Below the pieces are notes generated by a model that ran no database searches, had not been told where the DNA came from, and saw only the letters and a program-made list of their open reading frames with translations. Made by a program: the position numbers and the translations under genes. 16,124 bases of DNA. It comes from Nitrospinae bacterium RIFCSPLOWO2_12_FULL_45_22 (GTDB lineage: Bacteria; 2-12-FULL-45-22). Positions 1,986 to 15,947 of this stretch are shown piece after piece; the stretch's first letter is position 1, and each line of letters opens with the position of its first letter. The stretch lies in contig MHDQ01000014.1 in the NCBI GenBank assembly GCA_001803565.1, positions 1-16,124 on the forward strand, written 5' to 3'.

Positions 1986-2002
1986 AATCCACTCCTATTT
2001 AC

Positions 2003-2136
2003 CTTAACATTGTCACATACTACGAAACTATTTGATAATGCTACCTTAAATTGTGGCACAAATATTATTCGTGCTTTTTAATGAACGGATAAATCCATGC
2101 CTACAAAAAAGGAATTTTAAATGTGACAATGTTGAG
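2003..2136. repeat. 134-bp inverted-repeat unit upstream of sdhA, with a third arm copy at 2171
   Basis: CTTAACATTGTCACAT at 2003-2018 is matched at 15 of 16 positions by the reverse complement of ATGTGACAATGTTGAG at 2121-2136. The core ATGTGACAA appears again at 2171-2179, preceded by the same run of Ts and As as the 2121 copy. The interior is AT-rich and shows no coding sense. The left arm lies only 18 bases above the sdhA start codon, so the arms could be either ends of a small defunct element or paired operator sites (the TGTGA core is the half-site of CRP/FNR-family regulators). I cannot decide between these. Confidence 0.6.
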
Positions 2137-2180
2137 TTAGATAATATACCTCAATTTCATAATTTTTTAAATGTGACAAA

Positions 2181-2320
2181 GTCAAGCTAACAGGGCCACG
2201 TCGAAGTCATCTTAGAAGTCGATTGGGTAACTCAAGGCTTTAGCCTTGACAGATCAACCCTGAAGGGTTGAGTTACAGGGGCTGCTCAGGATCACTTTGA
2301 CGTTACCGTGGTCAAGCTAA
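2181..2320. mobile_element. MITE-like element: 120 bp with imperfect terminal inverted repeats and 10-bp flanking direct repeat
   Basis: GTCAAGCTAA occurs at 2181-2190 and again at 2311-2320. The 120 bases between them (2191-2310) start and end with 21-base imperfect inverted repeats matching at about 16 of 21 positions (2191-2211 against 2290-2310; the best block is ACGTCGAAGTCATC against GATCACTTTGACGT). Terminal inverted repeats that end exactly at a direct repeat are the layout of a non-autonomous transposon with target-site duplication. The element has no ORF and its centre folds into a three-way junction (next entry). Some IS families make duplications of 9-13 bp, but I cannot assign this one. 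Confidence 0.55.
2227..2276. other. Perfect three-way-junction fold in the centre of the MITE-like element
   Basis: The closing stem GTAACT (2227-2232) pairs with AGTTAC (2271-2276). Directly inside it is a hairpin CAAGGC-TTTA-GCCTTG (2233-2248), then a 6-base linker ACAGAT, then a hairpin CAACCC-TGAA-GGGTTG (2255-2270). All three helices are free of mismatches and abut without spare bases except the linker. It resembles a clipped cloverleaf but has no tRNA features. It may fold as single-stranded DNA or as RNA. Confidence 0.65.
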
Positions 2321-7545: not shown

Positions 7546-8538
7546 TCAGCCGCTAAGTTTTTCTTTAAATTCCTTGGTGAGTACAGGAACAACCTTAAAT
7601 AGATCACCCACAATGCTATAGTTCGCTATATTAAAGATCGGGGCTTCTGTATCTTTATTGATAGCCACAATGACCTTGGAAGTCCTCATCCCTGCCAGGT
7701 GCTGGATGGCACCAGAGATACCACAGGCAATATACAATTTAGGTGAGACAACCCGGCCGGTTTGCCCTACCTGGAAGCGCTGGTCTCGCCAGCCAGAATC
7801 TACCGCCGCCCTGGATGCCCCTACCGCTGCCTTCAGGAGGACAGCCAGCTCTTCTAATATGGCAAAATTTTCTGCGCCTTTCATCCCCCGGCCACCAGAG
7901 ATAATTGTATCCGCTTCAGTAAGGTCCACCATGCCCGAGACATCTTTAACTATCTCTTTTATTTGTACCCCAATGGCCATATCTGCTACCTGTGGAGTAA
8001 TGTTTATAACTTCAGCTTTATGGGCTTCATCTGGGGCATTCAAGGGCATGACATTGGGCCGGATAGTGGCCATCTGGGGCCGTGCTTCCGGACATACCAC
8101 ATCTACATAGGCCTTGCCCGCATATACCGGGCGATTTATTTGCAACAGCCCCTGGTCGTTAATACAGAGAGTGGTACAATCCCCCGCTAAGCCAGTCTTT
8201 ACCCGGGCAGCTACCCGAGGGGCCAGGTCCCGACCATTTATATTAGCCCCTAAGAGAAAGATAGAGGGCTGATTTTGTGAGATAAGGTCTGCTATAACTT
8301 TAGAATAAGGCTCAACACGGTAGTCCTTGAGGATATCATGTTCGGCCAGATAGACTTTATCCGCTCCATAATAGCCCAGGGTTTGGGCCAATCCAGCAAC
8401 ACCACTGCCTAGAAGCACAGCCGCAACTTCTTCCCCTGCCTTATCAGCTAGTCTCCTGGCTTCACTCAAGATCTCTAAGCTTACTTTCCTCAGCTTCCCT
8501 TCCGCATGATCAGCATAGATCCAGATACCTTTAGCCAT
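7546..8538 (-). CDS. etfA: Electron transfer flavoprotein alpha subunit
   Basis: A 330-residue FAD-binding ETF subunit. It opens MAKGIWIYADHAEGKLRKVS, typical of the N-terminal ETF domain. The C-terminal FAD domain has SGGRG (214-218), GASRAAVDSGW (240-250), GQTGRVVSP (258-266), ACGISGAIQH (271-280) and INKDTEAPIF followed by A-x-YSIVGD, all characteristic of EtfA. With EtfB it accepts electrons from acyl-CoA dehydrogenases and hands them to a quinone oxidoreductase. GAGAGG lies about 9 bases ahead of the ATG. It is the last gene of the operon, separated from etfB by 151 bases that contain a heptad foldback. Whether this ETF bifurcates cannot be read off safely; the neighbouring membrane FeS protein favours electron exchange with quinone. 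Confidence 0.95.
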   Translation of the reverse strand: MAKGIWIYADHAEGKLRKVSLEILSEARRLADKAGEEVAAVLLGSGVAGLAQTLGYYGADKVYLAEHDILKDYRVEPYSKVIADLISQNQPSIFLLGANINGRDLAPRVAARVKTGLAGDCTTLCINDQGLLQINRPVYAGKAYVDVVCPEARPQMATIRPNVMPLNAPDEAHKAEVINITPQVADMAIGVQIKEIVKDVSGMVDLTEADTIISGGRGMKGAENFAILEELAVLLKAAVGASRAAVDSGWRDQRFQVGQTGRVVSPKLYIACGISGAIQHLAGMRTSKVIVAINKDTEAPIFNIANYSIVGDLFKVVPVLTKEFKEKLSG

Positions 8539-8562
8539 TTTCCCGATCCTCTCCTTATTAAG

Positions 8563-8691
8563 TTTTCAGCTATCAGAAGTCAGCCTTCAGTTTATTTCGT
8601 GAGAGCGTAAGGGGGTAAGGCGTTAGGGGAAAATCTCCTTACGCCTCACGCCTTACTCCTTACGGAAAATGCTGACCGCTGGCTACTAACT
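8563..8691. repeat. Nested foldback built of 7-base words between etfB and etfA
   Basis: The outer left arm is four TCAGNNN heptads (from 8566, in strict 7-base register to 8593). The outer right arm is GCTGACC GCTGGCT from 8671. The inner right arm is CCTTACG, CCTCACG, CCTTACT and CCTTACG at 8637-8664, exact 7-base steps. The inner left arm carries GTAAGGG, GTAAGGC and GTTAGGG at 8607-8628. TAAGGCGT (8616-8623) and ACGCCTTA (8648-8655) pair perfectly. It ends within the etfB stop codon region and fills almost the whole gap, so it must be transcribed with the operon. Confidence 0.8.
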
Positions 8692-9484
8692 ATATAACTT
8701 TATCCTGTTCCATCAAGGACTTGACCAATTCCTTAGAAATCTCCTCTGGCTCCCCTTCCATTTTGCGCCCCCCTTGCCTGGTGGGAGGGAGGGATAGCTT
8801 AACCATCCTGGCAAGAGAGCCGGCCTCACCAAAACTGCCCGGGGCTTCTCCCAGATCAGCCGGGGTAAAGAACTTGATCTCTTTCTTTTTTGCCCCCATG
8901 ATCCCCTTAAGGGAAGGGTAGCGGGCTTCATTGAGTCCCTTTTGGCAAGTGAATAGGGCCGGTAATTTTACCTCTACCACCTCGGTAGCGCCTTCTACCT
9001 GGCGATGGGCAATAGCGGTTTTTTTATCCGTGGAGATCTCTAATTTGATTATTAGGGGTACGCCAGGTATTCCCAGCAGCTCTGCTATTTGCGCTCCAAC
9101 CTGACAACCATCTCCATCAACGGCCTGCTTACCGCAGAGTATTAAATCAAAACCGGTCTTTTCAATGGCCTTAGCCAGGGCTTTAGCCGTGGCATAGGTG
9201 TCGGACTTTTCGAAAGCAGGGTCACAGAGATGGACTGCCCGGTCAACTCCCATGGCCAGACATTTCCTGATAGCCTCAGTAGCCCGGGTTGGCCCCATAC
9301 AAACCGCTATGACCTCGCCCTCGCCAAACTTCTCTTTAATCCGTAAGCATTCTTCCACCGCATACTCATCATAAGGATTCACAATAAATTCTACCCCATC
9401 TTTAATAATCTCAGTACCTGCTGGGTTGATCTTGATCTGGGTAGCAGTATCAGGAACTTCCTTTATACAGGCTATAAGCTTCAT
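8690..9484 (-). CDS. etfB: Electron transfer flavoprotein beta subunit
   Basis: A 264-residue partner of EtfA. MKLIACIKEVPDT is the usual EtfB start; NPYDEYAVEE (36-45) and CGKQAVDGDGCQVGAQIAEL (117-136) form the nucleotide-binding region; KGLNEARYPSLKGIMGAKKK (182-201) is the EtfB signature. I chose ATG 9484 because AGGAGGTG lies 7 bases upstream; the frame extends to a TTG at 9502, but those codons are the ribosome binding site itself. It starts 14 bases after the stop of the EMO-like gene, so the two are surely co-transcribed. All expected parts are present and there are no odd residues. Confidence 0.95.
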   Translation of the reverse strand: MKLIACIKEVPDTATQIKINPAGTEIIKDGVEFIVNPYDEYAVEECLRIKEKFGEGEVIAVCMGPTRATEAIRKCLAMGVDRAVHLCDPAFEKSDTYATAKALAKAIEKTGFDLILCGKQAVDGDGCQVGAQIAELLGIPGVPLIIKLEISTDKKTAIAHRQVEGATEVVEVKLPALFTCQKGLNEARYPSLKGIMGAKKKEIKFFTPADLGEAPGSFGEAGSLARMVKLSLPPTRQGGRKMEGEPEEISKELVKSLMEQDKVI

Positions 9485-11673: not shown

Positions 11674-11706
11674 GCCGCAAAGGAGCGTAAAAAGCGCAAA
11701 GAAGGA
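11674..11706. repeat. Degenerate CGCAAAG-word repeat
   Basis: CGCAAAGGAG, CGTAAAAAG and CGCAAAGAAG follow each other, three degenerate copies of the word also seen at 7500-7528 and (as CGCAGAGA) at 234-298. There is no opposite arm. It lies in the 325-base gap between the yibQ-type gene and the EMO gene. Confidence 0.5.
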
Positions 11707-11708
11707 TA

Positions 11709-11756
11709 CAGTGAGGAGTGAGCCGTGAGCCGTAATCAGTAAACCGCTCCTCACTG
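11709..11756. repeat. Heptad array with closing inverted repeat
   Basis: From 11711 five 7-base words follow in exact register: GTGAGGA, GTGAGCC, GTGAGCC, GTAATCA, GTAAACC. CAGTGAGGAG (11709-11718) is the perfect complement of CTCCTCACTG (11747-11756), so the array folds back on itself. It is non-coding and lies between a terminator-like hairpin and the EMO promoter. Confidence 0.75.
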
Positions 11757-11811
11757 CATTACCCGTAAAGACCCTCAATGCGAGGTATGCAGCTATAAAC
11801 GACGCTAACCA

Positions 11812-14125: not shown

Positions 14126-14190
14126 CTTTATCTCTCCTCCGCTAGATCATTGATACTTATCCTAACTTGATTGCATAGGAATTTCATTTT

Positions 14191-14398
14191 GGACACAGAT
14201 GAACACAGATTATACTGCTTAGGGAATACAGTAGTCAGAAGCCAGTATGAACGGAACAATCACCTTTATAGAACAAAGAACTAAGAACCAAGAGCTAAGA
14301 TAAGGAGCCGGGGGTCTTTGCTCTTTGCTCTGTGTTCTTTGCTCTGAATTCTGACTCCTGAATTCTAGTCATCTGTGCGAATCTGCGGAAATCTGCGT
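14191..14398. repeat. Three-shell nested foldback of 10-, 7- and 7-base words between ctpA and envC
   Basis: Outer shell: ACACAGATGA-type 10-base words (14191-14212) face ATCTGTGCGA and ATCTGCGGAA words (14370-14398). Middle shell: CAGTAGT, CAGAAGC, CAGTATG (14229-14249) face CTCTGAA, TTCTGAC, TCCTGAA, TTCTAGT (14342-14369). Inner shell: AGAACAA, AGAACTA, AGAACCA, AGAGCTA (from 14270) face TCTTTGC, TCTTTGC, TCTGTGT, TCTTTGC (from 14315); these arms (14270-14300, 14315-14345) match at 25 of 31 positions around a 14-base loop. It is non-coding and lies inside the ftsX-envC-ctpA-yibQ cluster. Confidence 0.85.
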
Positions 14399-14400
14399 AC

Positions 14401-14563
14401 TAATTAATTTGGGTGTGGCTATTTTCTGTCAAAATTCAATTAACCCTGTAGTGGCAGAGCCGGGTACCCTTTGGGTGCTGCGAGGAATGTCGAGCAAGCT
14501 CGACCACTACAAATTGTATTATATAGGCGTTATGACAAAGAATAGCCACACTTAATTAATTTC
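14401..14563. repeat. Composite inverted-repeat element, MITE-like, between ctpA and envC
   Basis: GTGTGGCTATTTTCTGTCA (14413-14431) and its complement at 14533-14551 match at 17 of 19 positions and are bordered by AATTAATT on both outer sides (14402-14409, 14554-14561). Nested inside is a second element, 14447-14511, closed by TGTAGTGG/CCACTACA, with a perfect hairpin GTCGAGC-AA-GCTCGAC (14489-14495, 14498-14504) and a GGGTACCC palindrome. This looks like one small element inserted in another. No ORF is present. The outer right arm ends 8 bases before the envC stop region. Confidence 0.75.
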
Positions 14564-15753: not shown

Positions 15754-15850
15754 CTCTTTTTGTAACCATTTAGCCAAATTAAGATCATAATAACCGTTTA
15801 GCTACAAAAAGGCCCATAAGGCGCAAGAGAATTTCTGGTACCTTTGTAAC

Positions 15851-15947
15851 CACAAAGACACAAAGATCACAAAGAATTGTATCTCGTGACCGTGCCCATT
15901 GCTCGTGTCTGTTGTAACCACTACGGTCACGGATCACGGACACGTCC
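15851..15947. repeat. CACAAAG word array and CGTGACC foldback between envC and ftsX
   Basis: CACAAAG occurs three times at 15851-15874 (steps of 8 and 9 bases). It is followed by CGTGACCGT (15885-15893), the perfect complement of ACGGTCACG (15923-15931). The right arm contains TCACGGA twice in exact 7-base register (15927-15940) and ends GACACG, complementary to CGTGTC in the loop side. The element fills most of the 179-203-base gap between envC and ftsX. Confidence 0.65.

Follow-up and report, generated by a model that had tools for sequence, protein, structure and literature searches.

The described systems closest to the repeat family reported here, the TCAGC family, are the IS66 family and the IS-derived MITEs. 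The family shares GTAA[GC]CGTTCA ends and an 8-bp target duplication with complete IS66 elements to which it was compared, and such end sequences also occur in relatives of ISPa75 (PMC12888890), the IS66 repeats of the ISPa75 paper being GTAAGCGTCCGG... and GTAACCGTCCGGGCA (PMC12888890). As in IS-derived MITEs, its copies are small, non-coding, and dispersed, and they have terminal inverted repeats. Unlike these systems, the family has arms made of an iterated 7-base word and often a second foldback at the centre; moreover, no autonomous IS66 element with exactly the ends of the family was found, and its arrays are not associated with IS66 genes. A MITE that inserted in an operon and exists in dozens of size-variable copies with conserved ends and direct repeats is the Chunjie MITE from Geobacter uraniireducens (reviewed in PMC10969869). 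The TCAGC family resembles it in the operon insertion, in the many copies of variable size, and in the conserved ends and direct repeats, with the review's description as the basis for comparison.

Intergenic 7-base direct repeats are common to distant bacteria, as illustrated by the TAACTGA heptamers of Beggiatoaceae and the STRRs of cyanobacteria (PMC4679880). The TAACTGA heptamers consist of one fixed word which is inverted in 1 of 170 sets (PMC4679880), whereas the TCAGC family has a 5-base core followed by two free letters, inverted arms, and transposon ends. An earlier reading of the locus, made from the sequence only, had already held that it is not a simple STRR, and the TCAGC core with free NN letters in inverted arms bears this out. 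For Nostoc, Elhai reportedly described in 2008 small dispersed repeats embedded in tandem heptamers, and this likeness (small repeats tied to heptamer arrays) is one by description. Each REP unit is one palindrome, associated with a RAYT enzyme. REPINs are inverted pairs of short extragenic units which spread as small mobile elements (PMC3116915). The TCAGC family differs from REPINs and REP-BIME elements by its 8-bp duplications and its heptad arms, and the 8-bp duplication argues for an enzyme class other than the RAYT type.

A literature search, which reached only a minority of the subscription papers, revealed no description of heptad-armed IS66-type MITEs, and searching the literature by literal sequence returned unrelated matches only, apparently primers. 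Heptad repeats and small palindromes, usually separate curiosities, are joined here in one family, a transposon whose arms are made up of the heptads. The end sequence of this family and its 8-bp footprint are testable, and its centre carries other foldbacks.

The composite foldback between etfB and etfA

The window (the whole stretch of 16,124 nucleotides that was analysed) carries the genes for the beta and alpha subunits of electron transfer flavoprotein on the minus strand: etfB (8690–9484, start taken at MKLIACIKEV; Pfam ETF) and etfA (7546–8538; Pfam ETF and ETF_alpha). A concentric foldback of 133 bp (8558–8690) fills the space between the two genes, reaching from the stop codon of etfB to the ribosome-binding site of etfA; both signals are intact. 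The last base of the element lies within the TAG stop codon of etfB. At the other side, the left flank TCTCCTTA (8550–8557, minus strand), which is the etfA Shine-Dalgarno sequence TAAGGAGA, directly abuts the element. The right flank is TATATAAC (8691–8698). The sequence-only reading had placed a foldback at 8563–8691; the foldback is there, with 8558–8690 as the better limits.

The outer arms are built from TCAGCNN/GCTGANN words and the inner arms from NGTRAGG/CCTYACK words (CGTRAGG/CCTYACG type), which enclose the central loop AAAATCT (8630–8636). The outer left arm (8558–8593, plus strand) reads TTAAGTT TTCAGCT ATCAGAA GTCAGCC TTCAGTT and has TCAG at positions 8566, 8573, 8580, and 8587. 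The inner right arm (8637–8665, plus strand; CCTTACG CCTCACG CCTTACT CCTTACG G) is detected by TRF with period 7 and 4 copies and has CCTYACK at positions 8637, 8644, 8651, and 8658. Counting positions thus confirmed the earlier statement that TCAGNNN and CCTYACK are each repeated four times in exact 7-base steps, and each run of four is unique in the window. The opposing arms also proved to be complements of the same words, as had been claimed: the words CGTAAGG/GGTAAGG/CGTTAGG of the inner left arm (8598–8629, plus strand; CGTGAGA-GCGTAAG-G-GGGTAAG-GCGTTAG-GGG) lie opposite the CCTYACK run, and the words GCTGACC/GCTGGCT of the outer right arm (8670–8690, plus strand; T GCTGACC GCTGGCT ACTAAC) lie opposite the TCAG run. 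That all arms are strict 7-base arrays applies to the TCAG and CCTYACK runs but not to the inner left arm, which contains one 8-base step (CGTAAGG at 8606 to GGTAAGG at 8614), nor to the outer right arm, which is decayed and retains two clear words only. According to other family copies, the "NNN" of TCAGNNN is a mostly fixed C followed by two free letters (TCAGC-NN).

The lag-7 self-identity of the element is 0.48, compared to 0.245 +/− 0.039 for 2000 dinucleotide shuffles, none of which is as high at any lag from 4 to 14. The element folds with −58.5 kcal/mol (z −6.5 vs. shuffles); for the minus (coding) strand with flanks, the z value is −4.0. An Rfam search of the window resulted in 0 covariance-model matches, in agreement with the earlier view that this is not a normal RNA gene.

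BLAST analysis of the window element resulted in 67 matches, the closest copy (L002) being 86% identical over 115 bp. The ends TTAAGTTTTCAGC and GCTGGCTACTAAC have drifted from the family ends GTAAGCGTTCAGC / GCTGAACGCTTAC, both flanks fall in gene signals, and no target duplication is left in the window copy, the two flanks matching in 2 of 8 positions. With drifted ends and no duplication, it is by homology that we assign the window element to the family, of which it would be an old, decayed member.

The gap between etfB and etfA is 155 bp in the window vs. 3–97 bp in 46 of 59 distant orthologues, most of these gaps being too short for the element; this comparison is with remote orthologues, one genome only having the same gene order, with a distant etfA. 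No heptad foldback occurs in the distant orthologous spacers among those displayed. When nine family copies were sorted by their neighbouring genes, none was located within an ORF and five were in tandem spacers, near to both neighbours. In the transcript, the etf element would form a strong hairpin between two cistrons, with translation signals untouched, and may alter the ratio of etfB to etfA mRNA. Filling of an operon spacer in this way is a natural experiment on an inserted hairpin and the output of adjacent genes. Elsewhere in the window (1996–2190), three TTTAAATGTGACAATGTTGAGTTA-like copies, one of them inverted, are found downstream of a gene for a FAD-binding flavoprotein.

Target duplications and an empty target site

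Intact family copies in this genome have the ends GTAAGCGTTCAGC...GCTGAACGCTTAC. Copies are 113–228 bp long and non-coding, with inverted GTAA...TTAC ends, and of the termini in the genome, 23 are exact and about 80 are near-exact. For the 16 copies with recognisable ends, the 8-bp flanks are 74% identical vs. 31% for shuffled pairings (z 8.9), with a perfect match in 8 of the 16 and no duplication signal at 3–7 or 9–11 bp. This test uses recognised ends; a scan of the same genome from word boundaries, which are not the true ends, gave noisy optima. A scan of 374 kb for paired GTAA[CG]CGTTCA-like ends retrieved 54 pairs, 11 of which have perfect 8-bp duplications (0.27 expected). Few duplications were found in a blind search around all foldbacks, because arm boundaries are imprecise.

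One copy (L262) is an insertion with the duplication TGACAAAG into a repeat, and joining its flanks restores a 75-base alignment at 88%. The uninterrupted form of this target, identified by the flank alignment, is the arm of another repeat in the window (TTATGACAAAGAATAGCCACAC...; 14530–14562, plus strand). The family has thus been moved by transposition with 8-bp target duplication: given the shared ends, the 8-bp duplications, and the one empty target, copies spread as sequence. In the sequence-only reading, length and pairing rather than any fixed sequence had been suggested to be what is copied; this is not supported, as the copies in this genome share their sequence and ends and have 8-bp duplications, and one empty target exists. 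We envisage the outer shell as non-autonomous and bounded by terminal repeats of the IS66 type (GTAAGCGTTCAGC); a transposase acting in trans would have inserted it and duplicated 8 bp of target.

The dispersed repeat at 14402–14562 of the window has 33-bp arms (GTGTGGCTATT ... AATAGCCACAC) around a TAGTGGCAGAGC core; it also occurs in L022 and L262, with a TCAGC MITE inserted.

Heptad arms and variable cores

Cores within the one TCAGC shell vary: some are of a common type of ~80 bases, others are the CGTRAGG foldback or foldbacks with the words GCAATAG, GGGATCAG, GAGACT, TTAATTGG, or AATAACC/AATGACC. Other shells, which end in GTAACCGTTCA or GTAACAGTTCA and are flanked by perfect duplications, contain CACTAAG, GGGTTCA, or CATTTCGAG arms, and the CGTRAGG foldback is also found within CGCAGAG arms (L006, L021, L280). 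In two copies (L250 and L016), the TCAGC and CGTRAGG layers occur together and are associated with perfect duplications, so that the composite must have moved as a unit. In general, the second foldback with the word CGTRAGG would sit at the centre and move with the shell, as it did in these two copies.

The terminal word GTAAGCG shares its 7-base frame with the repeated NTCAGCN, which makes the arms look like repetitions of the inner portion of the terminal repeat. They may be tandem degenerate iterations of its inner half (GTTCAGC, NNTCAGC, ...), in which heptads would be gained or lost by 7-nt slippage, independently in each arm. The one clean case from which we generalise is site D of genus g215, where one arm of the same insertion, but not the other, differs between two species by exactly two heptads, and other species have an empty site. 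This difference is a slippage signature and is incompatible with the proposal that length is copied. Pairing is not copied either, as NN matches between opposing arms do not exceed those of shuffled pairings and are, if anything, fewer: matches in register number 1 vs. 4.2 expected in this genome (G000) and 2 vs. 4.6 in g215. The idea that one arm was copied from the other was rejected, the free NN letters not being paired above chance. In G000 and G290, NN letters shared between arms are rarer than in shuffled pairings by about 1 to 3.5 sd, depending on the definition, a weak to moderate effect for which we claim no avoidance; low sharing could reflect an instability of perfect palindromes.

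The 7-base period in intergenic regions

A sample of 273 kb, taken from 20 contigs of the genome and chosen regardless of repeats, was subjected to autocorrelation analysis. Intergenic DNA has peaks at lag 7 (z 9) and lag 14 (z 10) and a weaker one at lag 8 (z 7), which are found neither in coding DNA nor in shuffles. Near-perfect lag-7 windows amount to 3.4 per 10 kb of intergenic DNA, compared to 0.38 for coding DNA and 0.11 for shuffles. The period-7 signal for which the sequence-only reading proposed a genome-wide search is thus present in this sample and far above that of shuffles. The 3.67 Mb draft contains 130 occurrences of TCAGCNNTCAGC and none of its reversed control. Foldbacks with other words are also present, among them CGCAGAG and CACAAAG (period 8–9), AATCCTA, GTCATTR, AATTAGC, TTCTGAM, and more. 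That the step of 7 recurs with different words and in nested foldbacks had been noted before, and many such word families were found. Of the strong foldbacks in the sample, 9/32 have GTAA-type ends, compared to 3% of random windows; among those with a clear period, it is lag 7 for 14/20. An IS66-type MITE accounts for the window element and its family but not for the general 7-base preference, since about three quarters of the sampled strong foldbacks are devoid of such ends.

Several other arrays were observed. Heptad foldbacks with the words AATCCTA, GTCATTR, and AATTAGC (L140 4801, L143 241, L144 11361, L150 16001, L140 6081, L142 5921, L143 1281) have no GTAA-type ends or visible duplication. 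The window contains another concentric foldback at 14180–14400, with ACACAGATGA (period 10) outermost, followed by TTCTGAC words and, innermost, AAGAACY / TCTTTGC heptads. A foldback with CGCAGAG words and period 8 (TTTACCGCAGAGACGCAGAG / CTCTGCGCCTCTGCGGTGAA) is located at 231–301, and further copies with this word have GTAACCGTTCA-like ends (L155 11416–11583). More word arrays are found in the window at 11690–11770 and 15850–15945 (GTGAGCC heptads; CACAAAGA, period 8–9, and CACGGAT words).

Occurrence in other genomes

TCAGCNN triplets were detected in 42 of 290 genomes from many families, some of these (G245, part of G230) being plain tandem runs, and in all 15 genomes of one genus. A genome from another bacterial family (G289) has two copies with identical ends, heptads, and perfect 8-bp duplications. 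Because ends, words, and footprint are the same in such a distant family, the element either crosses wide distances or is often re-made. The copies from g215 and G290 show no target-duplication signal, and many copies from g215 have a T-run at their end; for these two reasons, the g215 copies may be old or reused as terminators. At site A (L203 9868–9957 and orthologues), five species carry a TCAGC foldback, three a GTCTATTG-word foldback, and one a CATTGCGAG-type element, while others are empty.

Plasmid and phage collections gave no match by BLAST. Viral contigs are devoid of the GTAAGC-TCAGC pattern, and 7 have CGTAAGG arrays. In three phage-like contigs (L289 7145, L292 1271, L294 3462), a CGTRAGG heptad foldback fits precisely into the space from the stop codon of one gene to the ribosome-binding site of the gene that follows.

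The transposase and alternative explanations

Complete IS66 elements from other genomes (L296, L300, L303, L308) have GTAA ends and 8-bp duplications; the ends of such complete elements are GTAAGCGCT, GTAAC[TC]ATTCAGGGGG, GTAAATATTCGG, and GTATCCGTTCG/GTAAGCGTTCG. Another IS66 element (L311) has a perfect 24-base terminal repeat which starts with the 12 bases GTAAGCGTTCAG, and L299 is also counted as support for IS66. End sequence and duplication length therefore point to IS66, and from these two properties the outer shell would best be read as a non-autonomous IS66-type MITE. The genome under study, a draft that is 85% complete, contains an IS66 transposase fragment (PF03050, PF13005) beside an assembly gap, with GTAACCGTTCACC 133 bp upstream. 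No full or autonomous copy with kb-spaced GTAAGCGTTCAGC ends was found in this 85% complete draft. PF03050 is absent from 15/15 genomes of genus g215, though these are array-rich, and PF13005 from 16 other array-rich genomes. Over 290 genomes, arrays and IS66 are not associated (6/42 vs. 27/248, p 0.6), and IS66 presence was rejected as a correlate of array distribution. Array-rich genomes without a linked transposase raise the question which enzyme moves the family.

We consider it likely that the feature in the etfB-etfA spacer is an old composite MITE copy with an IS66-type outer shell, slippage-built heptad arms, and an inner CGTRAGG foldback. Elements of the same type might instead be moved by a non-IS66 transposase which also recognises GTAAGCGTTCAGC and duplicates 8 bp. 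This is conceivable, if somewhat unlikely: arrays and IS66 domains do not co-occur, G289 has perfect duplications but no IS66 hit, and the autonomous partner was not found in this genome, but the perfect IS66 terminal repeat of L311 opens with the same 12 bases and this genome has an IS66 fragment with a GTAACCGTTCA end. Furthermore, draft assemblies often drop multi-copy IS elements. Quite unlikely, in our view, is a more far-reaching version, in which unrelated bacteria have a vocabulary of 7-base words in concentric foldbacks in common because an undescribed system other than IS66 both builds heptad-armed foldbacks and mobilises them. Its enzyme would read the iterated word and not the tip alone, and would put new foldbacks into older loops.

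Heptad foldbacks might also arise by general intergenic mutation (7-nt slippage and hairpin-templated repair), with transposon ends on only some of them. The lag-7 signal throughout spacers, the majority of strong foldbacks without GTAA-type ends, the different words carried by sister species at site A, and the slippage by two heptads at site D are all compatible with this. We nevertheless regard it as improbable, as homology, fixed ends, and 8-bp duplications unite the copies, the non-complementary NN letters imply that the arms were not templated on each other, and local mutation would not be expected to yield one word combined with all kinds of NN in distant families. Equally little credence is given to a foldback that is retained in operon spacers because it functions as a hairpin in RNA or DNA, be it a terminator, a stabiliser of mRNA, or a protein-binding array, with a sequence that is free beyond pairing. 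Such a hairpin is missing from the orthologous etf spacers displayed, sister species commonly have empty sites, and NN pairing is not maintained; this is set against a strong fold, a location that runs from stop codon to ribosome-binding site, copies in tandem spacers near to both neighbours, T-runs which often end g215 copies, and intergenic CGTRAGG foldbacks in phage-like contigs. An STRR of the cyanobacterial type would share the period of 7, but shuffle tests, nested inverted arms, target duplications, and independent copies in other genomes make this, or a chance or assembly artefact, extremely improbable.

Two minor observations concern other contigs. In L288 (1021–2709), an IS66 transposase frame continues through a short gap of Ns into a gene unrelated to it, and one IS66 end is missing; this is probably a scaffolding chimera. 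In genus g215 (L201 11568–11956, L212 5768–6139), foldbacks of differing vocabularies are located between successive tRNA genes.
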